Shown here: in pieces, positions 646-13,241 of the stretch
Position numbering within the stretch: the stretch's first letter is position 1
How the letters are laid out: each line of letters opens with the position of its first letter
NCBI GenBank assembly: GCA_903906615.1
Contig: CAIVKT010000285.1
Span: forward strand, 1 to 13,252
DNA: 13,252 bases
Source: an uncultured Bacteroidota bacterium
GTDB taxonomy: Bacteria > Bacteroidota > Bacteroidia > Chitinophagales > Chitinophagaceae
Direction of reading: 5' to 3'
The notes under the pieces: generated by a model
Told to the model about the DNA's origin: nothing
The model's database searches: none
Seen by the model: the letters and a program-made list of their open reading frames with translations, nothing else
Translations under genes and position numbers: made by a program

Positions 646-1875
646 TTAGCTATGAAGTAGTCGCACCTTGGTACCCCGCCCGAGTGCCAATATACGGGAA
701 TACATGCGCTGAATAGCCGATAGCTGTATAACCTGCAATTTTTCCGGCACAATGTTGATCATACCAATCGCTTGCTCATATCGCGCAAGGCATATATCCA
801 TACTGAATTCTGCTGAGGCCAGTTGCCTTGCTGCCAATTGCCTTATTGCTTTGGGTACCGCTGCTATCTCTTTTATTTTGCTCACAGCATCTGCAATATT
901 ACCTACTTCATACACTCTATAGCAATCGGGAGCCAGCGCATGGTGTTCGTAGTCCTCAATGCCGCTTACGCGCGTACCTACCAAGCCACAGCCTGCGGCT
1001 AGAGCCTCCATCATAGCTATAGGTGTTCCTTCAAAATCCGAAGTTAGTAACAGCACATCGCTGGCTGCTAAATGAGCCGCAACCTCTTGCTGTGGCAGCC
1101 ATCCATAAAAAGTCACTTGTTGTTGTAGCCTTGCCTCGCTAATCTTTTTTTCGATCGTTTCTTTTGCATCACCATCACCTATCACCCGCAGTTGAAATTT
1201 TGTATCGCTTTTGGCCAGTTCCACGCATATCTTCACCAGGTCTCCCGCCCTTTTCTGGTAGTCCGTTATCCTGCCTGCATATACAAGGTTCAAAGTATCT
1301 GTATTGCCTGCTGTGGGCTTGTACGCAGGCAGTTTGATACCGCAAGGGATGGTGGCAATATTTTCGGTATTGTAGTGTCGCAGCCGCGCCTGTACGGTAT
1401 GGTGTACCCGCTCCGATACACAAGTAAAGAACGCTACCTGCTGCTGATACTTTGTGGCAAGTGCGTAATAATGCGCCTCATCGCTATGTAGCACACCTAT
1501 TACGGGGTAAGTAGCGCACATGGCTGTAGCCGATGCCCACACAACCGCATCATCAGATACAATAACAGGCGTACCGGCTGGCAGTTGCGCAAGCAATTTT
1601 TTATAAATGAACGCCCGGTATTCAGGAGTGCCAAATTCAAATTCATAACTCACCTTTGCGGAGAGGATGTGTGCCTTGCTGTTTTGCGCAGCTAATAACT
1701 GTAACAATGTATCTCTGCCCTTAGCCGAAAAGAATGCTTTTGTCGGTTCTACAGTAACGAAATAAACCTCCTTCCCCGCTTCGGCAAAGGCTGCTGCGGC
1801 ATCGGCCATCCAGCGGGTAACTCCGCCCCTGTGATAGGGGTGGCACAGAAAAGCTATTTTGTTGTTGCCACTCAT
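646..1875 (-). CDS. Glycosyltransferase, GT4-like (GT-B fold)
   Basis: This 409-residue cytoplasmic or membrane-peripheral glycosyltransferase likely transfers a nucleotide-activated sugar during surface polysaccharide assembly. The N-terminal Rossmann domain opens with a Gly-rich acceptor loop, H-R-G-G-V-T (about 15-20). The C-terminal nucleotide-sugar domain starts near VYAGRITDYQKR (198-209). It carries V-I-G-D-G (231-235) and the E-x7-E donor motif, with E282 and E290 in FEGTPIAMMEALAAG, followed by G-T-R-V-S-G-I-E-D. These are hallmarks of retaining GT4-like enzymes. Its ATG overlaps the asnB stop codon in an ATGA tetranucleotide, so the two genes are translationally coupled and asnB is the promoter-proximal gene. 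Donor and acceptor sugars cannot be read from the sequence. No frameshift or missing motif was seen. Confidence 0.9.
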   Translation of the reverse strand: MSGNNKIAFLCHPYHRGGVTRWMADAAAAFAEAGKEVYFVTVEPTKAFFSAKGRDTLLQLLAAQNSKAHILSAKVSYEFEFGTPEYRAFIYKKLLAQLPAGTPVIVSDDAVVWASATAMCATYPVIGVLHSDEAHYYALATKYQQQVAFFTCVSERVHHTVQARLRHYNTENIATIPCGIKLPAYKPTAGNTDTLNLVYAGRITDYQKRAGDLVKICVELAKSDTKFQLRVIGDGDAKETIEKKISEARLQQQVTFYGWLPQQEVAAHLAASDVLLLTSDFEGTPIAMMEALAAGCGLVGTRVSGIEDYEHHALAPDCYRVYEVGNIADAVSKIKEIAAVPKAIRQLAARQLASAEFSMDICLARYEQAIGMINIVPEKLQVIQLSAIQRMYSRILALGRGTKVRLLHS

Positions 1876-3821
1876 TGTTTATCCAGCCATCGGTTAAAAC
1901 ATATGATGCGCCACGGCATAAAGTTGAATGTGCGCTTGCCATCCATTATCTCTGCTACATATTTCCGCGCGGCAGTTGCGTCTATCATGGTACGGTCCAG
2001 TTTTTTGTAGGCTGCTTCCAGCTCATTACTAAACCATGCTCTGCCTTCTTCTTTCAGCCACACTTCTTCCGGTGTCACAAAGCCCATCTTATCTCTGCGT
2101 TGCTCAATGGCTTCGGGTATTACACCGTGCATGGCCTTGCGCAGCACATGCTTGCGTACGCCTTTGTTATACACATACCGCTCCGGCAGGCTCATGTTAA
2201 ACTCCACAAGCCGGTAATCCAAAAAAGGTGTGCGCGACTCCACACTCCACGCCATTGAATTGTGGTCTTCGTAGCGCAGCAACCCCGGCAATGGAGTGCT
2301 ATATAGCTGTTGTACCAGGTTTTCTCTCAGGCTGTGTGCATGTTGCAATTCGCCTTCATTGTTCTGGTGTAATACCCAGTCGGCCGGGGAATGTGTGGAT
2401 AGTCGCAAACGCTTAGGTAGCAGCTGAGTAATGCCTTTACCGCCTGTTAGTTGCGCAGCGCCCAATAAAAATCCCTTGGGCCAGTGCCCTTTTTCGCTTT
2501 TATAGTGCCTTGCCTCAACATACAGCGAGCGCCATTTCATTTGTTGCAACATACCTGTGTAGTACGATAGGTCGTTGCCGCCATACCCCGCAAGCTGCTC
2601 ATCTGCGCCCTGCCCGTCTATCATCACTTTAAGCCCTGCTCTGTTCGTTTCTTTAAATACCGCCCACTGGCTGAAGATAGATGTGCTGCCAAATGGTTCA
2701 TCCTGGTACCACAGCAATGTGTCGAGGTCTTCCTGCAATTGTGTGAACGAAGGAAATACCCTGTGTGGATGCGCCTTTGTTTTTGCGATCACCTGCTGCG
2801 CGTAGCTCCACTCATCATATCGCGCGTTATCAAAGCAGGCGGTTACTGTTTCTTGCCCTGCATGGTCGCCCTGTGCTTGCAGCAAGTCTGCTGCCAGGCA
2901 CACAATGCTCGATGAATCCAGCCCGCCGGATAGGCAGGAGCCCACTTTCACATCAGAGCGCAGCCGCACCCGCACTGAATCCGTCAGCAATGTCTTTAAT
3001 TGCGTAGCGGCATCCTCAAAGCTGCCCCGCCACTTTGTATTGGGTAGTTGATACCACCGTACTGTTTTCATTTTACAATCACTGTCTGCAAGGTCTATGT
3101 GCAGGTAGTGGCCGCCTGGCAGTTGTTTTATTTGTGTGTCAAATGTATTGTCCGTATGCTCTGTAGCGCCTGTGGCAAGGAACTGCCTTGCGCTGGTTTC
3201 ATTCAGCGAGAACTGAAATCCCGGCGCAGTGCTTATCTGCTTTATTTCAGAGGCCAGGTATATGGCATTTGTTCCGGTATAGTAGTAGAGCGGCTTCACG
3301 CCAAACCTATCGCGCACGGCATAGAGCTCCTGCTTCCGCTCGTCCAGCAGTACAAAGGCAAACATGCCATTGAACTTATGCAGGCATGCTGAGCCCCATT
3401 GCGCCCATGCGTGTAATATCACTTCGGTATCGGATGTGCCGGTGAATTGATGCCCTGCCTGCCGCAGTTCTTCTTTTATCTCCAGGTAATTATAGATCTC
3501 ACCATTAAACACAATAGACAGTTGCGCTTCGGCAAACAGCATAGGCTGATGCCCCGTAGGTGAAAGATCAAGAATAGATAGCCGCCTGTGCCCTAAGCCT
3601 ACTTTAAAGGATTCGCCGGGGTGCAGGTCTTCATACTTCCAGTGGTCTTTTGTGGAATGTGCGGTGTCTTTGCCTGCCCACACTTTGGCATTGCTACCGG
3701 GCTTCCAGGTAAGGAACCCCTCATCATCAGGACCGCGGTGGCGTATAACAGATGTGGCATCAATAAGCTGTGCGCTATCGCTCTTACCCCTGATGTTAAT
3801 TACCGATAGTATGCCGCACAT
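1872..3821 (-). CDS. asnB: Glutamine-hydrolysing asparagine synthetase-like amidotransferase
   Basis: This 649-residue protein has two domains. The N-terminal Ntn glutaminase starts MCGI, so Cys2 is the nucleophile after Met removal. It carries HRGPDDEG (28-35), GLGHRRLSILDLS and FNGEIYNY (105-112). The C-terminal ATP-pyrophosphatase domain has the PP-loop SGGLDSS (298-304), DGQGADE (402-408) and a downstream S-V-E-S-R-T-P-F-L-D motif. The reaction is amide transfer from glutamine to an ATP-activated carboxylate. The enzyme is about 95 residues longer than E. coli AsnB, as is usual for AsnB homologues in polysaccharide clusters. Relatives there, such as WbtH of Francisella and WbpS of Pseudomonas, are assigned to amidating uronic acids. 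Its operon partner is a glycosyltransferase and it diverges from a second sugar operon. A role in glycan amidation is therefore at least as plausible as asparagine synthesis; sequence alone cannot decide. Confidence 0.93.
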   Translation of the reverse strand: MCGILSVINIRGKSDSAQLIDATSVIRHRGPDDEGFLTWKPGSNAKVWAGKDTAHSTKDHWKYEDLHPGESFKVGLGHRRLSILDLSPTGHQPMLFAEAQLSIVFNGEIYNYLEIKEELRQAGHQFTGTSDTEVILHAWAQWGSACLHKFNGMFAFVLLDERKQELYAVRDRFGVKPLYYYTGTNAIYLASEIKQISTAPGFQFSLNETSARQFLATGATEHTDNTFDTQIKQLPGGHYLHIDLADSDCKMKTVRWYQLPNTKWRGSFEDAATQLKTLLTDSVRVRLRSDVKVGSCLSGGLDSSSIVCLAADLLQAQGDHAGQETVTACFDNARYDEWSYAQQVIAKTKAHPHRVFPSFTQLQEDLDTLLWYQDEPFGSTSIFSQWAVFKETNRAGLKVMIDGQGADEQLAGYGGNDLSYYTGMLQQMKWRSLYVEARHYKSEKGHWPKGFLLGAAQLTGGKGITQLLPKRLRLSTHSPADWVLHQNNEGELQHAHSLRENLVQQLYSTPLPGLLRYEDHNSMAWSVESRTPFLDYRLVEFNMSLPERYVYNKGVRKHVLRKAMHGVIPEAIEQRRDKMGFVTPEEVWLKEEGRAWFSNELEAAYKKLDRTMIDATAARKYVAEIMDGKRTFNFMPWRIICFNRWLDKQ

Positions 3822-3863
3822 GGTGTTTTAATGGTATAGCCTGCTGTGATTTTTTCAGCGCAG

Positions 3864-3871
3864 CAAAATTA
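3864..3871 (-). promoter_or_regulatory. Putative -7 promoter element of the asnB-glycosyltransferase operon
   Basis: On the minus strand this is TAATTTTG, matching the Bacteroidota TAnnTTTG -7 consensus. It lies 42 bases before the asnB ATG, which would give a 5' leader of about 35 nt. A TTTTG lies upstream, but with a 26-base spacer, longer than the usual 17-23 for a -33 element, so only the -7 element is convincing. Confidence 0.5.
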
Positions 3872-3939
3872 CACAAAATGCCCTGTTTTATTGCAGGCAA
3901 AAGGGTAATTTATCGCAACAACTATCACCTCATAAATGC

Positions 3940-3947
3940 TACTTTTG
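3940..3947 (+). promoter_or_regulatory. Putative -7 promoter element of the glycosyltransferase-wlbA-formyltransferase run
   Basis: TACTTTTG matches TAnnTTTG and ends only six bases before the ATG at 3954. If it is used, the transcript starts at or within a few bases of the start codon. No good TTTG -33 element is visible at the expected distance. It lies about 70 bp from the opposing asnB element in the same 132-bp divergent gap. Confidence 0.45.
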
Positions 3948-3953
3948 TGCTTA

Positions 3954-5264
3954 ATGAAGGTTCTCGCACTCACACATGCCCATTTACATCCCGGCGGGCT
4001 ATCGCCAGTATCCTGCGAGCGTGCCGACTCGCTGGTGGGTACGTGGAGCAGTGCGCTGCACTGGGACATTGATGTGGTACATACTCCTGGCACCCAATGG
4101 CGGGGTATATGGCTCGATGGCAATGGGCTACAGGTACATATCATTCACCAGCCTGCGCCACCTGCCCTGATGATGAACAAGCCACAACTGTTTTCGTCAG
4201 AGATAAAAGCCCTGCTGGCTAAGCAGCAATATGCAAAAGTGTTCGAGCTGGGCATAGCCCGTATTTCAAAACGCGCGCGCAAGGCTTTCTCTGCCAACGG
4301 CCTCGCCCTGCCCTACGAACTGGCAAAGGCCAGACAATGGGGACAGGCATTGGCAGGCAATGAACGGATAAAGAACAGCAAATACGACCTCATTTTTGTA
4401 TGTGCAGGCTACGGTGACGAATACCTGCTGGAAACCGGCCTGCTGCTCGCAGAGCAGCAGAATGTGCCCATGGTCGTTGATTTCAGGGACTTGTGGAGCG
4501 ATCATCACAATGAAGGCCGCTTTACCGAAAAACAAAAAAAGGTGATCCGCAGGCTGGAAACAAGGCTACTTCAAAAAACAGTAATGGTGAGCGTGCCGCA
4601 AAAGCATATGGCCACATTACTAAAGAAGTGGCTCAAAACACCTGTATACCTGCTTGCACACAGCGCCTATACCGACCCTGCCTGGAAGGATGGCCGTGTA
4701 GTAAGCAATGAGTTCGTGATGCTGTATGCAGGTAAGCTTTATGCCGATGGTCCGGGTCTGGGTATGCTCATAGATCTCATCAAAAAACTGGCGGCGGCTC
4801 ATTTATACAAGCCATTCCGTTGCCGTTTTTTTGTAGATGACCCGGATATGCTGAAGCGTATCGCCGAAGATAATGGTGTAGCGCAATACATGGAGATCAA
4901 CAGCTGGGTTGCCCCCGGCGAACTGTGGCAGAACATGCGCAGCGCGCACCTGCTACTTATACCCGATTCGGGTGTGGCCGAAAATTACCCGTTGCTGCCG
5001 ACCAAAACGTTTCAATACGCCTATGCCGGGCGGCAGATATTGTGCCTCTCGGCCTATAAAAATGACGAGATGCAGGAATTCCTGGATGCGCACCACGCGG
5101 GCATTGTTACTACCAACGTTGATGATGCCGCCACATGGGTGGCACAACTTTCTTTTGCCAACGAGCAGTACGAACAGATGCCCGCCATGAGGAATGTGCC
5201 ACTGCGGGCGCAGGCCGCCCATGATATGGGCATAGAAATTGAGAAAATTATGGCACAGAAGTAA
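3954..5264 (+). CDS. GT-B fold glycosyltransferase
   Basis: From the ATG at 3954 the protein is 436 residues. An earlier in-frame ATG at 3936 would add MLLLCL, but the Rossmann strand M-K-V-L-A-L-T-H followed by a Gly-rich H-P-G-G loop marks 3954 as the natural start. The N-terminal half holds D-L-I-F-V-C-A-G (145-152) and VVDFRDLWSD (174-183), typical of GT4-like enzymes. The C-terminal half begins LYAGKLY (257-263) and has a donor-site segment LLPTKTFQYAYAGR (347-360), equivalent to the usual P-x-K-x-x-E-Y-x-A-x-G motif with Gln in place of the common Glu. It is probably a cytoplasmic, membrane-associated enzyme adding a sugar to a growing surface glycan. The wlbA gene follows after 55 bp, so its substrate may be the sugar made by that pathway; this is an inference from position only. 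Confidence 0.83.
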   Translation: MKVLALTHAHLHPGGLSPVSCERADSLVGTWSSALHWDIDVVHTPGTQWRGIWLDGNGLQVHIIHQPAPPALMMNKPQLFSSEIKALLAKQQYAKVFELGIARISKRARKAFSANGLALPYELAKARQWGQALAGNERIKNSKYDLIFVCAGYGDEYLLETGLLLAEQQNVPMVVDFRDLWSDHHNEGRFTEKQKKVIRRLETRLLQKTVMVSVPQKHMATLLKKWLKTPVYLLAHSAYTDPAWKDGRVVSNEFVMLYAGKLYADGPGLGMLIDLIKKLAAAHLYKPFRCRFFVDDPDMLKRIAEDNGVAQYMEINSWVAPGELWQNMRSAHLLLIPDSGVAENYPLLPTKTFQYAYAGRQILCLSAYKNDEMQEFLDAHHAGIVTTNVDDAATWVAQLSFANEQYEQMPAMRNVPLRAQAAHDMGIEIEKIMAQK

Positions 5265-5319
5265 TACTTTTATCCCACCTTACCTGACCCCCATACCACT
5301 AAAGAAAAAGTAAAGGCAC

Positions 5320-6261
5320 ATGAAAAACTTCGCACTGATAGGCGCTGCCGGATATATTGCCCCGAGGCACCTTGCGGCCATAAGAGATACTAAGAATAAC
5401 CTGCTGGCCGCTATGGACCGCTTCGACAGCGTGGGCATATTGGATAGCTATTTTCCGCAGGCCCATTTTTTTACAGAGTTCGAGCGTTTTGACCGGCATA
5501 TAGACAAACTGAGAAGAAGGGGCGATAAGATAGATTATGTGAGCATTTGCACACCCAACTACCTGCACGACTCCCACATTCGCTTTGCGCTCCGTAGCAA
5601 TGCAGATGCTATTTGCGAAAAGCCCCTGGTCCTCAATCCCTGGAACCTGGAGGCCCTGCAGGAAATAGAAAAAGAGACCGGCAACAAAGTATTCAACATA
5701 CTGCAACTGCGCCTGCACCCATCTATTATAGCCTTGAAGGAAAAGATAGACAATGAAAAGAACGATAAACTTTACGACATAGACCTTACCTACCTCACCT
5801 CCCGTGGCAACTGGTACGGCAATAGCTGGAAGGGCGAGATCAGCAAGTCGGGCGGCATAGCCACCAATATAGGTATCCACTTCTTCGATATGCTGATCTG
5901 GATATTCGGCGCGGTGAAAGAAAATATAGTGCATGTGGTCAAGGACGATCATGCTGCCGGTATGCTGTACCTCGAAAAGGCACGTGTGCGCTGGTTCCTC
6001 AGCATCAACTACGATCACCTGCCTGCAGAAGCCAAGGCGCAGAACAAACGTACCTTCCGTGCCATCACGGTTGATGGCAAAGAGATAGAGTTCAGTGAGG
6101 GCTTTGGCGACCTGCACACCCGCAGCTACGAAGAAGTGCTGAAGGGCAATGGCTTCGGGCTGGACCAGGCTATGCCCAGCATCACGCTTGCCCATGGCAT
6201 CAGGGTAGCTGCGCCCACACCGCCCACCGGCGAGTATCATCCTTTCATTAAATCTGTATAG
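5320..6261 (+). CDS. wlbA: UDP-N-acetyl-glucosaminuronate 3-dehydrogenase (WlbA/WbpB type, Gfo/Idh/MocA family)
   Basis: This 313-residue enzyme opens with the NAD-binding signature ALIGAAGYIAPRH (5-17), characteristic of WlbA/WbpB. The Gfo/Idh/MocA lysine is K101 in C-E-K-P. The conserved active-site histidine is probably H187, in T-N-I-G-I-H-F-F-D. It also has I-L-Q-L-R-L-H-P, LTYLTSRGNWY, ARVRWFLS and EFSEGFGDLHTRSYEE, all recognisable from that subfamily. The family oxidises C3 of UDP-GlcNAc-uronic acid with NAD+. A PLP aminotransferase then makes a 3-amino sugar, which in Bordetella and Pseudomonas goes to di-N-acetyl mannosaminuronic acid for LPS. Those companion genes are absent from this window. 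It lies 55 bp after a glycosyltransferase and 10 bp before a formyltransferase. A TACTTTTA sequence at 5266-5273 could be a weak internal promoter. Confidence 0.92.
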   Translation: MKNFALIGAAGYIAPRHLAAIRDTKNNLLAAMDRFDSVGILDSYFPQAHFFTEFERFDRHIDKLRRRGDKIDYVSICTPNYLHDSHIRFALRSNADAICEKPLVLNPWNLEALQEIEKETGNKVFNILQLRLHPSIIALKEKIDNEKNDKLYDIDLTYLTSRGNWYGNSWKGEISKSGGIATNIGIHFFDMLIWIFGAVKENIVHVVKDDHAAGMLYLEKARVRWFLSINYDHLPAEAKAQNKRTFRAITVDGKEIEFSEGFGDLHTRSYEEVLKGNGFGLDQAMPSITLAHGIRVAAPTPPTGEYHPFIKSV

Positions 6262-6271
6262 AACTGCCGCA

Positions 6272-6961
6272 ATGAAAACAATAGGCATTATCACCTACGA
6301 CTATCCGCACCTGAAGACCGAACAGGTAATGCTGAACCTGCTGCAAAAGTATGCTCCATCACAAATGAAGATGTTTGCACTGCCCTTTACTCCGCGCAAA
6401 GAAAGGAACATACAAATATCACATCGGCCAAACCAGGCCAATAGCGTGCATCCGCGTAGCATGGCTGATGCTCATGGTATATCCTATACACCCGTTGCGT
6501 TCGATCATGAAATAGAGAGTGGCCTCGATTATTATGTGATACTTGGTGCTGGTATTTTGTCTGAGCGGTTTGTAAAAGATAAAAAAGTATTCAATTGCCA
6601 CCCCGGTGTTATCCCCGCTGTGCGCGGGCTTGATGCTTTTAAGTGGTCTATACTCGAAATGCAGCCCCTTGGTGTATCGCTTCATTTTATAGATGAGCAG
6701 GTGGATGCAGGTGAGATCATTTCCATACTGCCCACCAATGTATACGCTACAGATACCATCGAAACCCTTAGTCGCAGACACTACGAGAACGAAATAGCCA
6801 TTATGAGCGATTTTGAATACCACCTGCAACACCCCGCAAATATCTTTGCTGGTATAGCCACCGGCGAGCCGCACCGCAGGATGGATGCGGCCACAGAAGC
6901 AGCCATGATCGAAAAATTTGAGGCATACAAAACAACAATGGCTTACCCTGCAAATCGTTAG
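6272..6961 (+). CDS. Formyltransferase-fold enzyme, probable sugar N-formyltransferase
   Basis: This 229-residue protein has the formyl-transferase N-terminal fold shared by PurN, Fmt and sugar N-formyltransferases. The catalytic trio is intact: N108 and H110 in F-N-C-H-P-G-V-I-P, and D145 in F-I-D-E-Q-V-D-A-G-E-I-I. This matches Asn106, His108 and Asp144 of E. coli PurN almost position for position. R-G-L-D-A-F-K-W-S-I (118-127) corresponds to the folate/substrate loop of the family. It lacks the Fmt C-terminal tRNA-binding domain. It starts 10 bp after wlbA, so it is co-transcribed with a sugar-nucleotide enzyme rather than with purine genes. The likely reaction is transfer of formyl from N10-formyl-tetrahydrofolate to an amino sugar nucleotide, plausibly the 3-amino product of the WlbA pathway. 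The acceptor is inferred; a divergent PurN is the alternative. Confidence 0.8.
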   Translation: MKTIGIITYDYPHLKTEQVMLNLLQKYAPSQMKMFALPFTPRKERNIQISHRPNQANSVHPRSMADAHGISYTPVAFDHEIESGLDYYVILGAGILSERFVKDKKVFNCHPGVIPAVRGLDAFKWSILEMQPLGVSLHFIDEQVDAGEIISILPTNVYATDTIETLSRRHYENEIAIMSDFEYHLQHPANIFAGIATGEPHRRMDAATEAAMIEKFEAYKTTMAYPANR

Positions 6962-7019
6962 CCCGAATTTATCAACCTTGCTTATCTTTATAACACAATT
7001 CAATAGAAAACACTTCACT

Positions 7020-7427
7020 ATGGCGCTCTTCTCCCAACTCGGTAATTACAGAAACTTCGGACTGCTGATAGCCCGCGCGGGCGTGGGCGTTATGATGTTT
7101 TTGCATGGCCTGTCCAAACTCACCGGCGGCCCTGATAAATGGATAGACCTGGGCCATAACATGAGCCACCTGCACATTACCTTCTTCCCTGTATTCTGGG
7201 GCTTTATGAGCGCCGTTACCGAAACCATTGGCGGGCTGTTCTGCGTGCTTGGCCTGTGGTTCAGGGTGGTTAGCCTGTTTATGGTCATCAACTTCATCGT
7301 GGCTATCCTCACGCTTTTTGCCGCGGGCAAAGGCTTCATGGGTTCGTCCGAAGCTATTGAGCTTGCCTTCGTATTCTTTGGGTTCCTCTTCCTCGGCGCA
7401 GGCACATATTCAGTAGATAAAAGCTAG
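7020..7427 (+). CDS. DoxX-family integral membrane protein
   Basis: From the ATG at 7020 the product is 135 residues. A longer frame from 6918 would run inside the formyltransferase gene, so 7020 is preferred. Four hydrophobic segments are visible at about 13-31, 54-76, 80-101 and 113-130. The first contains the family-typical A-R-x-x-x-G-x-x-x-M-x-x-H-G-x-x-K-L pattern, with H29, G30 and K33. DoxX-like proteins are small four-helix inner-membrane proteins. Some are linked to quinol oxidases or thiol/redox stress systems, but the function is mostly unassigned and none is shown here. It lies 58 bp after the formyltransferase. A TATCTTTA near-match to the -7 consensus at 6983-6990 suggests it may have its own weak promoter. 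It converges on the next gene through a hairpin. Confidence 0.85.
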   Translation: MALFSQLGNYRNFGLLIARAGVGVMMFLHGLSKLTGGPDKWIDLGHNMSHLHITFFPVFWGFMSAVTETIGGLFCVLGLWFRVVSLFMVINFIVAILTLFAAGKGFMGSSEAIELAFVFFGFLFLGAGTYSVDKS

Positions 7428-9031: not shown

Positions 9032-10666
9032 TTGTTTACTTTATCAGGCAAGCTTATTGATCTTTTTCAGCGGAGGATATATCCGGCGCAGGTGGTTATT
9101 AAAGACGGTCGCATACACGCTGTTACCGAAACTGAAACTGCCGAAGACCGCTACCTGCTGCCGGGCTTTGTGGATGCGCATATACATATCGAAAGCTCTA
9201 TGCTCGTGCCCACAGCGTTTGCACAGATAGCCGTGGTTCACGGAACAGTTGCAACCGTATCAGACCCGCACGAGATAGCCAATGTAAATGGCCTGGCCGG
9301 TGTGCAGTACATGATTGATAACAGCAAGCTATCCCCATTCAAGTTCTTCTTTGGCGCACCCTCGTGCGTACCTGCCACTGCGTTTGAAACAGCGGGTGCC
9401 ACGCTTGATGCCGCAGCAGTAGAAACACTGCTCCAAAACCCCGATATCTGGTATTTATCGGAGCTGATGAACTATCCCGGTGTGCTGTATGGCGATCCTG
9501 AGGTGCTTGCCAAGATAGCTGCCGCAAAGCGAGCAGGAAAACCTGTAGATGGCCATGCGCCCGGCTTGCGGGGCAGCGAAGCAGCAATGTATGCTGCCGC
9601 AGGTATCACCACCGATCATGAATGCTTCACCCTGGATGAAGCACTGGATAAAATTGCTGCCGGTATGCACATTCTTATCAGGGAGGGTAGCGCAGCCAAA
9701 AACTATGAAGCCCTTGCGCCCCTGTTGCATTCGCACCCCGATCGGGTAATGTTTTGCAGCGATGATAAGCATCCCGATGAGCTGTTGCTACACCACATCA
9801 ATGGCCTCGTGAAACGCTCCCTGCAAAAGGGATACGACCTTTATGATGTGCTGCGTGCTGCCTGTGTGCACCCCGTATTGCATTACAAACTGCCTGTGGG
9901 CCTGCTGCGTATTGGCGACCCCGCAGATTTCATTGTTATCAATAACCTTACCGACTTCGACATACTGCAAACCTACATCGGCGGCGAACTGGTAGCAGAA
10001 AACCACACATGTTTACTTCCTTCTATTCCCGCCACAGCTATCAATAACTTTAAGGCTACCCGAAAACAAGTGGCGGATTTTGCGATACGGACATCTACCG
10101 CTGCACCCACTATTCGTGTTATAGAGGCCATTGAAGGGCAATTGGTGACCAATTGCCTGCAACTGCCTGCAAAGGTGGAAGGCGGCTACATGGTGAGCGA
10201 TACCTCGTGGGGCATACTCAAAATAGCTGTCATCAACCGATATGAACCATCGGCCGCTGTGGCTACTGGCTTTATCAAAAACTTTGGGTTGCAGCGTGGT
10301 GCGATTGCCTCTACAGTCGCGCATGATTGCCACAACATTATAGCTGTGGGTGTTGATGATGCTTCTATATGCGCTGCTGTAAATGCCCTTATTGATTGTA
10401 AGGGTGGCATAGCAGTCGCCCGCAGCGAGGCCAGTGTCGACTTATTGCAACTGCCCGTAGCAGGCCTTATGTCATTGGATAGTGCAGAAGAAGTAGCAAG
10501 TGCTTATACACATCTTAATAGTATTGTGCGTAGCCTCGGCTCGCCATTGCATGCACCGTTTATGACGCTATCCTTCATGGCCTTGCTCGTCATCCCCTCA
10601 TTAAAGCTAAGCGATAAAGGACTATTTGATGGCAGCAAGTTTGCGTTTACAGATGTAGAGGTATAA
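9032..10666 (+). CDS. ade: Adenine deaminase
   Basis: This 544-residue metal-dependent amidohydrolase converts adenine to hypoxanthine and ammonia in purine salvage. A short beta-sandwich N-terminal segment leads to G-F-V-D-A-H-I-H (metal ligands H50 and H52) and I-E-S-S-M-L-V-P. Then come DPHEIANV (78-85), G-H-A-P-G-L (H175), T-T-D-H-E (193-197) and F-C-S-D-D-K-H-P (241-248). The C-terminal third is the adenine-deaminase-specific domain, with H-D-C-H-N-I-I-A-V-G and a cysteine-rich stretch. Length is close to the roughly 590 residues of the E. coli enzyme. The start is TTG at 9032: no in-frame ATG lies nearby and the fold begins at once with F-T-L-S-G-K-L-I-D. The 11-bp gap to the globin gene has no Shine-Dalgarno sequence, suggesting co-transcription. 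Confidence 0.95.
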   Translation: MFTLSGKLIDLFQRRIYPAQVVIKDGRIHAVTETETAEDRYLLPGFVDAHIHIESSMLVPTAFAQIAVVHGTVATVSDPHEIANVNGLAGVQYMIDNSKLSPFKFFFGAPSCVPATAFETAGATLDAAAVETLLQNPDIWYLSELMNYPGVLYGDPEVLAKIAAAKRAGKPVDGHAPGLRGSEAAMYAAAGITTDHECFTLDEALDKIAAGMHILIREGSAAKNYEALAPLLHSHPDRVMFCSDDKHPDELLLHHINGLVKRSLQKGYDLYDVLRAACVHPVLHYKLPVGLLRIGDPADFIVINNLTDFDILQTYIGGELVAENHTCLLPSIPATAINNFKATRKQVADFAIRTSTAAPTIRVIEAIEGQLVTNCLQLPAKVEGGYMVSDTSWGILKIAVINRYEPSAAVATGFIKNFGLQRGAIASTVAHDCHNIIAVGVDDASICAAVNALIDCKGGIAVARSEASVDLLQLPVAGLMSLDSAEEVASAYTHLNSIVRSLGSPLHAPFMTLSFMALLVIPSLKLSDKGLFDGSKFAFTDVEV

Positions 10667-10687
10667 ACAGAATCACTACACACACCA

Positions 10688-11197: not shown

Positions 11198-12199
11198 ATG
11201 GCAGACGACAAATTAAAAGTATTGAAGCTCGCACTCGACAAGATCGAGAAAGACTATGGCAAGGGATCGGTGATGATGCTCGGCGACAAGGGAACCGACG
11301 TTATGGAGGTCATCAGCACAGGCTCCATCGGGCTCGATGTAGCGCTGGGCGTGGGCGGACTGCCCCGTGGCCGTATAGTAGAAATATACGGGCCGGAATC
11401 TTCAGGTAAAACAACAATAGCCATACATACTATTGCACAGGCGCAAAAGAAAGGCGGTATCTGCGCAATAATAGATGCCGAGCACGCATTTGATGCCAGC
11501 TACGCCCGCAAACTGGGTGTGGATGTGGATAATCTTATCATTTCCCAGCCCGACTATGGCGAGCAGGGCCTCGAAATAGCTGATCGCCTCATCTCCAGCG
11601 GTGCTGTAGACGTGGTGGTTATCGACTCCGTAGCCGCACTGGTACCAAAAGGTGAGCTGGAAGGCGAAATGGGCGAAAGCAAAATGGGCCTGCAAGCCAG
11701 GCTGATGAGCCAGGCGCTACGCAAGCTCACTGCCACTATATCCCGCACCGGCTGCTGCTGCATATTCATCAACCAGCTCCGCGAGAAGATAGGCGTGATG
11801 TTTGGCAACCCCGAAACAACTACCGGCGGCAACGCCCTCAAGTTCTACGCATCCGTGCGACTCGATATCCGTCGTATCGCGCAGATCAAGGACGGCGACG
11901 TAGCCAGCGGCAACCGTACCCGTGTAAAGGTGGTGAAGAATAAAGTAGCTCCACCTTTCCGCCAGGTCGAGTTTGATATCATCTTCGGTGAGGGCATCAG
12001 CAAAATGGGCGAGATCATAGATATGGGCGTAGACCTGGGCATACTCCAGAAGAGTGGCTCATGGTTCAGCTACAACGAAAGCAAAATAGGCCAGGGCCGC
12101 GATTCTGTAAAGCAATTCCTTGCAGACAACCCCGAAGTTAGCGATGCTATAGAAGCCCGCATCAGGGAAGCCCTGCTGCCAACAGCAGTGCCTGCATAA
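11198..12199 (+). CDS. recA: RecA recombinase
   Basis: This 333-residue RecA is the ATP-dependent DNA strand-exchange protein of homologous recombination and DNA damage response. Walker A is GPESSGKT (65-72). The catalytic glutamate is E95 in I-D-A-E-H-A-F-D. Walker B is V-V-V-I-D-S (139-144). DNA-binding loop L1 lies near [10 protein letters not shown] (155-164). L2 follows F-I-N-Q (Q193) and includes GNPETTTGG (203-211). [11 protein letters not shown] and K-N-K-V-A-P-P-F are also intact. The C-terminal tail is short and, unlike E. coli RecA, has no long acidic end. The ATG start gives the expected N-terminal polymerisation helix. It is transcribed alone, between a long promoter region and a strong hairpin. 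Confidence 0.99.
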
Positions 12200-12217
12200 A
12201 ACACTTAGTAAGTACAA

Positions 12218-12254
12218 AAACGATAAACGCCGCACTTTGTGGCGTTTATCGTTT
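12218..12254 (+). terminator. recA hairpin terminator
   Basis: The arms AAACGATAAACGCC and GGCGTTTATCGTTT are perfect 14-bp complements around a 9-base loop, starting 18 bases after the recA stop. The 3' arm ends in GTTT and is followed by a mixed sequence rather than a long T run. It should stop recA transcripts and separate them from the methyltransferase gene. Confidence 0.85.
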
Positions 12255-12346
12255 CTATAAACTGCTGCTGAAAAACCATTATAGATCGCTTTCGGCTCTT
12301 CCACTTACTACTTTCTGCTATATTTACACCTAACAACTATATTTAT

Positions 12347-12354
12347 TACTTTTG
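12347..12354 (+). promoter_or_regulatory. Putative -7 promoter element of the methyltransferase gene
   Basis: TACTTTTG matches TAnnTTTG. A TTTA at 12323-12326 lies 20 bases upstream as a weak -33 candidate. The leader would be about 55-60 nt and very AT-rich. It lies downstream of the recA hairpin, so the next gene has its own start signal. Confidence 0.45.
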
Positions 12355-12408
12355 ACCTGCTATTCATCAACGACACTTGATGCTTTTTAAATTTTAATTT
12401 TTACTTTT

Positions 12409-12416
12409 TAATTTTG
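12409..12416 (+). promoter_or_regulatory. Second TAnnTTTG element, adjacent to the methyltransferase ATG
   Basis: TAATTTTG ends three bases before the ATG at 12420. If it served as a promoter, transcription would begin at or inside the start codon, so it may instead be part of the T/A-rich leader. It is recorded because of its exact consensus match. Confidence 0.25.
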
Positions 12417-12419
12417 ACA

Positions 12420-13241
12420 ATGTCCCCGGAGCAGTTCTTTGAACTGATGCTGAAAGAATTAGAAGTGCATACCGAAATGCAGCCCTACTATAAATTCCTG
12501 GGCAAGCAGTCGTCATGGCACTTTCGCAGGAATTATTTTCTGGAGCGCCTGCGTTATATACAAAAGCATATTGTAGACGGCGGCATTAAGAACATGGACA
12601 TCTGGGACTGTGGCTGCGGCTACGGCACCACCTGCCTCTTCCTCGCTATGAACGGCATCAAAACATACGGCACCACGCTGGAGTTTTACTTTGAGACCGT
12701 GCAAAAGCGCAAAGATTACTGGAGCCAATACGGCGACACATCACTCTTCACCTGCACCTACGAGAACCTGTTTGATAACCAGCCCGCACCCAACAGCTAT
12801 AACTGGATCATAGTACAAGATACCCTGCACCACCTGGAGCCGATAAATGATGCCCTGCAGATATTCAACATCAGCCTGCGCAAAGGCGGCAAAATATTAT
12901 CAGTTGAGGAGAACGGCAATAATATTATACAACGCATAAAGCTCTATAAATACCGGGGCAATAAGCGCATCATCACCATTTGGGATGAACGCCTGCAAAA
13001 AGATATACTCATAGGAAACGAGAACATCCGTAGCCTGGCCAACTGGAGGAAACTGTTCGAAAAGAACGGATTCAGCATACCGGATTCCATGGTGCAATAT
13101 GTGCGCTACTATCTCCCCTTCCAATACAAGTCAGCAGACCCAGAAAAGTTGTTGCAGAAAGAACGGGAGATACAATCCTCAAAAGGTTTCCGCCGCGAAT
13201 ACTTTTTCTTCGGGCTCAACTTTATCGCCGAGAAAAAGTAA
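12420..13241 (+). CDS. Class I SAM-dependent methyltransferase, substrate unknown
   Basis: The product is 273 residues from the ATG at 12420; a TTG two codons earlier is also possible but less likely. The Rossmann-type SAM-binding motif I is W-D-C-G-C-G-Y-G (62-69). An acidic residue ending strand 2 is in T-T-L-E-F (E88). D-T-L-H-H-L-E-P (134-141) is the motif IV region, and R-K-G-G-K-I-L-S-V-E-E (154-164) follows motif V. The N-terminal 55 residues are helical and include F-R-R-N-Y-F-L-E-R-L-R-Y, probably a substrate-binding cap. The C-terminal 90 residues are basic and aromatic. Nothing in the sequence fixes the substrate; lipid, quinone or glycan methylation are possible. It stands apart from recA behind a terminator and runs nearly to the window end, so downstream partners cannot be seen. 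Confidence 0.85.
   Translation: MSPEQFFELMLKELEVHTEMQPYYKFLGKQSSWHFRRNYFLERLRYIQKHIVDGGIKNMDIWDCGCGYGTTCLFLAMNGIKTYGTTLEFYFETVQKRKDYWSQYGDTSLFTCTYENLFDNQPAPNSYNWIIVQDTLHHLEPINDALQIFNISLRKGGKILSVEENGNNIIQRIKLYKYRGNKRIITIWDERLQKDILIGNENIRSLANWRKLFEKNGFSIPDSMVQYVRYYLPFQYKSADPEKLLQKEREIQSSKGFRREYFFFGLNFIAEKK

Follow-up and report, generated by a model that had tools for sequence, protein, structure and literature searches.

The window analyzed here, a 13,252-nucleotide contig (CAIVKT010000285.1, C285) taken whole from an uncultured Chitinophagaceae bacterium (phylum Bacteroidota), probably encodes part of a Wbp/Wlb-type sugar pathway in which, judging from its genes and their relatives, the 3-amino group would be formylated instead of acetylated. 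The system in question consists of two glycosyltransferase genes (GTa and GTb), an asparagine synthetase-like gene (AsnB), a WlbA dehydrogenase gene, and a formyltransferase gene (FT) (Table 1). In the proposed pathway, a TviB-like dehydrogenase encoded on another contig (C434) would convert UDP-GlcNAc to UDP-GlcNAcA, WlbA would carry out oxidation at C3, and a WbpE-type aminotransferase (contig C744) would produce UDP-GlcNAc3NA. FT would then transfer the formyl group of N10-formyl-tetrahydrofolate to the 3-amine, producing UDP-2-acetamido-3-formamido-2,3-dideoxy-glucuronic acid. AsnB would probably convert the C6 acid to the amide with glutamine and ATP, and GTa and GTb would incorporate the sugar into a glycan of the cell surface. 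The calculated residue masses are 244.07 for the acid and 243.09 for the amide; for the di-N-acetyl sugars, the corresponding values are 258.09 and 257.10. An initial reading made without database searches (the sequence-only reading) had proposed this 2-acetamido-3-formamido uronic acid, with a formyltransferase taking the place of the acetylation step. As a prediction it is supported by the lack of a WbpD match in the genome, by the presence of WbpE-type aminotransferase and TviB-like 6-dehydrogenase genes, and by rows of 6-dehydrogenase, WlbA, FT, and WbpE genes elsewhere.

Table 1. Positions of the five genes and of the divergent region within the window, with the matches by which each was recognized.
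Feature	Coordinates	Strand	Evidence
GTb, family-4 glycosyltransferase	646–1875	-	Glycos_transf_1, 79 bits (cut-off 26.4); 4-bp overlap with AsnB
AsnB-type glutamine amidotransferase, candidate uronate amidase (WbpS-like role)	1872–3821	-	TIGR01536, 425 bits (cut-off 267)
Divergent intergenic region AsnB/GTa, 132 bp	3822–3953		Open reading frame coordinates
GTa, family-4-like glycosyltransferase, weakly recognized	3954–5264	+	Glyco_trans_4_4, 20.5 bits (below the cut-off of 29.7)
WlbA/WbpB, UDP-GlcNAcA 3-dehydrogenase	5320–6261	+	WbpB structures 3oa2 and 3o9z in PDB
FT, predicted 3-N-formyltransferase of UDP-GlcNAc3NA	6272–6961	+	Pfam Formyl_trans_N; Asn108, His110, Asp145

The identification of WlbA as a WlbA/WbpB-type dehydrogenase is borne out by its match to the WbpB structure 3oa2 (E value 1.5e-110, residues 1–311 of 313) and to 3o9z (1.4e-102, nearly full length). 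The coordinates confirm that FT begins 10 bp after WlbA and that AsnB lies in the divergent arm. The range originally given for the set (1872–6961) holds for AsnB, GTa, WlbA, and FT but excludes GTb. Likewise, the two glycosyltransferases said to flank the set are found one per arm, but GTa is located between AsnB and WlbA, not outside them.

FT scores 47.1 bits against the Pfam model Formyl_trans_N (cut-off 26.1). Asn108, His110, and Asp145 are invariant in a 28-row alignment that includes the window FT, and we take them to be the catalytic triad of sugar N-formyltransferases; the N-terminal part has additional invariant residues, including K15, R42, H51, and R52. The AlphaFold model (pLDDT 93) has a formyltransferase fold, and its top Foldseek match is the sugar N-formyltransferase WbkC (5vyt, E value 2.2e-11). 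Since VIA-align left PurN, Fmt, and the sugar formyltransferases tied, the substrate cannot be read from the fold alone. No close solved relative of FT was found, the best profile score being 55 bits. Assignment of FT as PurN, the glycinamide ribonucleotide (GAR) transformylase, was rejected given its score of 47.3 bits against TIGR00639 (cut-off 150.1), its sugar-gene context, and another Formyl_trans_N gene on contig C737 of the same genome (147.5 bits). The label “PurN-like” is a loose one. A plasmid search with FT returned two weak matches, one of them at a site annotated with a formyltransferase and a Gfo/Idh oxidoreductase. A second Formyl_trans_N gene of 263 aa is found on contig C145 (L014, 350–3023), between deacetylase-like and glycosyltransferase-like genes (by eye), and is possibly concerned with another formylated sugar.

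The sequence-only reading held that the pathway depends on genes elsewhere and proposed that two of them be sought; a candidate for each was found outside the window. Contig C434 begins with a nucleotide sugar dehydrogenase gene whose product scores above the TIGR03026 cut-off and which precedes Wza- and Wzc-like genes (both named by eye). Its orthologue in the sister genome G147 (90% identical) scores 574.8 against the TviB UDP-GlcNAc 6-dehydrogenase model, just under the cut-off of 592, and no higher than 204 against UDP-ManNAc dehydrogenase models. The aminotransferase is represented by a DegT gene that starts at the end of C744 and is cut by the contig end. This fragment matches WbpE at 6.7e-11, is 41% identical to the WbpE of locus L129 over 70 residues, and agrees in 73 of 74 residues with an intact G147 gene that has the same neighbors. 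The intact G147 protein scores 319 bits against WbpE and 260 against QdtB. Its three best matches among the FT loci sit in WlbA loci (L060, L127, and L129), and six of 29 Bacteroidota WlbA loci (L173, L174, L175, L177, L181, and L183) have, next to WbpD, a gene whose product is 52–57% identical to it. Another aminotransferase region of G147 (L214) proved to be unrelated and was set aside. No WbpI 2-epimerase was seen among the window's open reading frames, and no search for it was made in the genome.

The acetyltransferase WbpD/WlbB, also proposed as a check, had no match at 1e-15 in the source genome (G000; 3.54 Mb in 757 contigs, 85.7% complete), where the best match, 7.7e-11 and partial, falls at a PglD-like gene on contig C462. 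Nor was WbpD found at 1e-15 in the close relatives G147, G148, and G149, which carry both FT and WlbA. To place these results, 392 Bacteroidota genomes were sampled, 81 of which carry WlbA; 80 were searched, with G260 (3.1e-68, 41%) left out. WbpD is present in 67 of the 79 WlbA genomes other than the source, and in 38 the two genes share a strand and are no more than 400 bp apart. Among the 80, a complete FT match is found only in the source genome, and four others have partial matches of 6e-14 or weaker. When the genome of locus L122 is counted, four of the five Bacteroidota genomes with both FT and WlbA lack WbpD, compared with 12 of the 79 others (hypergeometric 0.0042, or 0.00099 for the four alone), a figure that is overstated since the four represent one FT clade and not four independent events.

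Thirteen window proteins were compared with those of three relatives (L050, L051, and G149). Twelve have a match in L050, where the arrangement is collinear save for the inverted recA-methyltransferase end (window 11198–13241, L050 14482–16591), and GTb is 68% identical. In the 20.7-kb locus L051, just GTb, AsnB, GTa, WlbA, and FT are matched, with order and orientation kept (identities of 57%, 64%, 56%, 81%, and 79%, respectively). Seven of the other eight proteins have a match in L050; L051 matches none of the eight. Because L051 keeps exactly these five genes in otherwise unrelated surroundings, the five genes, as gene order indicates, form a unit. The GTa orthologue adjoins WlbA in L050, L051, and G149 (L213, 53%). 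The idea that GTa generally accompanies WlbA was rejected, as GTa was not seen within about 1.5 kb of WlbA in the 29 Bacteroidota WlbA loci.

FT belongs to a family that spans the Bacteroidota, Campylobacterota, Bacillota, and Pseudomonadota (including the Pelagibacteraceae), among others. FT had 405 homologues; among the 120 listed, those that are named are mostly called phosphoribosylglycinamide formyltransferase, and one, from Nemorincola caseinilytica, is 70% identical to FT. A scan of the named genomes retained 80 of 107 loci, and removal of L087 and L095, which share a genome with L086, and addition of the window gave 79 loci, several of which extend less than 10 kb on one side. Within 10 kb of FT, Gfo/Idh genes are found in 58 of these loci, DegT genes in 52, both in 48, and AsnB genes in 25. 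Within 1.5 kb, Gfo/Idh genes are found in 38 of the 79 loci compared with none of 29 control loci, DegT genes in 34 compared with two, and WecB-like genes in five compared with two; SDR genes are this close to FT in only four loci. The control, an imperfect one, comprises 29 other formyltransferase loci from the window's own family (the best 30 matches minus its own, out of 76 genomes matched); these reach about 1.5 kb on each side, and four were scanned at a misplaced match position that still covers nearly the whole locus. In one Rhizobiaceae genome, FT occurs at three places on a single contig (L086, L087, and L095), each a 37% match.

In L127 and L129, the 6-dehydrogenase, WlbA, FT, and WbpE genes stand in a row, and L129 also has a WecB-like epimerase gene. 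The row is found in L128 as well, interrupted by inserted open reading frames. No WbpD was found at 1e-15 in the genomes of these three loci. The FTs of L129 (9740–10837, 365 aa) and L128 (9980–11101, 373 aa) have an extra C-terminal part, which in L129 weakly matches ankyrin-repeat models. On a tree of 75 FTs, from which L096, L114, L118, and L122 were omitted (piece <140 aa), association with WlbA requires at least seven changes. From the genes it accompanies, the FT family is best described as acting on 3-amino sugars that Gfo/Idh and DegT enzymes produce; where its partner is WlbA, a 3-amino uronate is the likely substrate. We infer this substrate, since Gfo/Idh dehydrogenases of other kinds also accompany the family, and some loci hold both FT and WbpD. 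If the prediction is true, a widespread formyltransferase family mostly named GAR transformylase would gain a function. In addition, 2-acetamido-3-formamido uronic acid would join the predicted sugar alphabet, with masses that could be sought in glycan data already recorded, and the Wbp sugar would have an exchangeable module in its N3 acyl group.

Several observations weigh against a formylated 3-amino uronate. Some concern the distribution of FT, which was surveyed together with WlbA and WbpD in 50 of the 80 loci (FT identity of at least 40% plus nine others; 49 genomes searched). WlbA is lacking at 1e-30 in 30 of the 49 FT genomes, and only 29 of the 79 loci have a 6-dehydrogenase gene within 10 kb of FT. 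Eight of the 19 genomes with both FT and WlbA also carry WbpD, so FT does not replace WbpD everywhere; five of the eight are Helicobacteraceae with the gene order WlbA-FT-WbpD-WbpE. Another of the eight is represented by the Muribaculaceae locus L122 (5672–13951), which groups 6-dehydrogenase, WbpD-like, DegT, FT-like, and WlbA genes; the FT match there spans 10001–10667, and the open reading frame labeled FT is just 150 aa. In all, three FT-bearing Bacteroidota genomes carry WbpD: G536 and G560 (without WlbA), and G565 (Muribaculaceae, with WlbA). Lack of WbpD is also not unique to FT genomes, since the 12 of 79 WlbA genomes without WbpD have no FT match better than 6e-14. In G149, FT is unlinked from WlbA, while GTa and WlbA are together.

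Other opposing observations concern the enzymes encoded outside the window. The nearest solved relatives of the C434 6-dehydrogenase are UDP-ManNAc dehydrogenases, and the top PDB match of the G147 aminotransferase is the unassigned entry 7b0d (329 bits), not WbpE. The aminotransferase located between WlbA and WbpD in L184, L185, and L188 is only 38% identical to the G147 protein, and the ten best matches of the C744 fragment (71 residues) lie in FT loci without WlbA proper. The WbpE-type aminotransferase adjoins an RmlC-like gene (by eye) in both G147 and G149 (L163, 8312–10004; L164, 8271–9960), which casts some doubt on its substrate. Finally, the source genome is a fragmented metagenome-assembled genome.

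In all five of the Helicobacteraceae loci (L065, L070, L071, L072, and L073), the FT gene has an early run of 10–13 G whose two sides are out of register. FT there looks like a phase-variable gene, and the acetyltransferase encoded next to it could act on the same amine. HCAN_0643 of Helicobacter canadensis, annotated as a methionyl-tRNA formyltransferase, is reported as a candidate phase-variable gene in a cluster (PMC2823697).

The predicted pathway resembles the Wbp/Wlb pathway to UDP-GlcNAc3NAcA/ManNAc3NAcA of Pseudomonas, Bordetella, and Porphyromonas in that the genome encodes WlbA/WbpB, a WbpE-type aminotransferase, and a putative 6-dehydrogenase. It differs in having a formyltransferase beside WlbA instead of a WbpD/WlbB match. 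Since WbpD was looked for and not found, we describe the pathway as Wbp-like and do not count it as a member. FT shares the Formyl_trans_N fold and presumably the Asn/His/Asp triad with the sugar N-formyltransferases WbkC, VioF, WlaRD, QdtF, and PseJ. However, FT represents a separate family found in many phyla, has no close solved member among its profile matches (55 bits at best), and is partnered far more often by Gfo/Idh and DegT genes than by SDR dehydratase-like genes.

A precedent for the predicted sugar exists in glycans of Pseudoalteromonas, Vibrio, and Plesiomonas. Excerpts of PMC3210612 describe 2-acetamido-3-acylamino-glucuronic acid or glucuronamide in which the N3 acyl group is malyl, acetyl, or 3-hydroxybutyryl; no 3-formyl uronic acid is found among the glycans in these excerpts. 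A literature search, judged by titles, abstract openings, and term counts and with most subscription journals outside its coverage, found no paper on a 3-formamido uronic acid or on a formyltransferase accompanying WlbA/WbpB.

The closest precedent we found for the combination of WlbA and AsnB is WbpS of Porphyromonas gingivalis. Excerpts of PMC7468200 describe PGN_1234 (WbpS), which resembles asnB and lies immediately after wbpE and wzx, as required for a uronamide; in this case, the linking sugar of the type IX secretion system (T9SS) is a 2-N-seryl, 3-N-acetylglucuronamide (also excerpts of PMC13086638). The Wbp/Vim and WbpS linker pathway resembles the window system in that, as far as these texts go, an AsnB-type enzyme is grouped with a wbp gene, the wbp genes are scattered, glycosyltransferases lie alongside, and the phylum is the same. 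The difference is the predicted formyl group in place of the 3-N-acetyl group of P. gingivalis. The window AsnB has the MCG start (Cys2) and the SGGLDS loop and, by analogy with the Porphyromonas WbpS, probably amidates the C6 acid of the sugar. The uronamide form raised as a possibility in the sequence-only reading is a probable one by that same precedent.

There is nonetheless an appreciable chance that AsnB is a conventional asparagine synthetase or has some other amidation target, which would leave the product as an acid. The protein reaches only 348.6 of the 816.9 bits required by TIGR03108 (eps_aminotran_1), the family to which WbpS-type enzymes are assigned in the excerpted PMC7468200. 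Yet this is its best score among the more specific models, the E. coli AsnB model giving 227 (cut-off 499), and the general model TIGR01536 scores best of all. Amidation of the uronate is favored by the position of AsnB inside the conserved five-gene block, by the AsnB genes within 10 kb of FT noted above, and by the P. gingivalis uronamide precedent. The destination of the sugar could also parallel that of P. gingivalis, where Wbp enzymes, WbpS, and glycosyltransferases make the linker (excerpts of PMC7468200 and PMC13086638). That the window sugar anchors T9SS cargo in the same manner, with a formyl group at N3, is an unlikely proposal. In a scan of two G147 proteins, the T9SS type A sorting domain passes its cut-off of 23 in one (40.7) and falls just short of it in the other (20.1). 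The 6-dehydrogenase, however, precedes Wza- and Wzc-like genes, which points to a capsule or exopolysaccharide, a destination at least as likely as the linker; an O-antigen is a further candidate for the glycan. The wider proposal, that the widespread FT family swaps formyl for acetyl at N3 and that in this bacterium and its relatives an N-formylated glucuronamide serves as the T9SS linking sugar, with the acyl group of the anchor depending on lineage, is more speculative and we give it little weight.

Alternative substrates for FT itself were also considered. It is improbable that FT formylates UDP-GlcNAc3N or another non-uronic 3-amino sugar with WlbA as a mere neighbor. The many FT loci with other Gfo/Idh genes, the majority of surveyed FT genomes without WlbA proper, and the scarcity of nearby 6-dehydrogenase genes are consistent with such a substrate, but here FT starts 10 bp after a WlbA whose match to WbpB spans almost the entire protein, and the genome contains a putative 6-dehydrogenase. 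Several known sugar formyltransferases act on 4-amines (by the titles of the structure matches), and PglE-like or VioA-like aminotransferases occur on contigs C462, C389, and C306 (named by eye), which could supply FT with a 4-amino-6-deoxy sugar. We nevertheless think this quite improbable, as hexapeptide acyltransferase-like genes, found as WbpD-query matches, lie near those aminotransferases on the same contigs, and SDR genes are much rarer than Gfo/Idh genes within 1.5 kb of FT. Finally, the usual naming of listed FT relatives as phosphoribosylglycinamide formyltransferase would fit a purine (GAR) or housekeeping enzyme found here by chance. In view of the low PurN score, the stronger Formyl_trans_N gene on C737, and the strong sugar-gene context, there is very little likelihood of this. 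Formylation of the 3-amino uronate is the reading we prefer for FT.

The remaining observations concern the window and its genome. A search of the window for tRNA genes found none, and sigma-70-like sites are not in excess in the 3600–7200 region, with five found and 5.2 expected from shuffles. The GTa reading frame is open from 3936. A 331-aa antisense open reading frame across WlbA (5299–6294, minus strand) was taken as an artefact. Elsewhere in the genome, contig C462 (L001) has a row of PglC-, PglD-, and PglE-like genes (by eye), which suggests a bacillosamine-type sugar.

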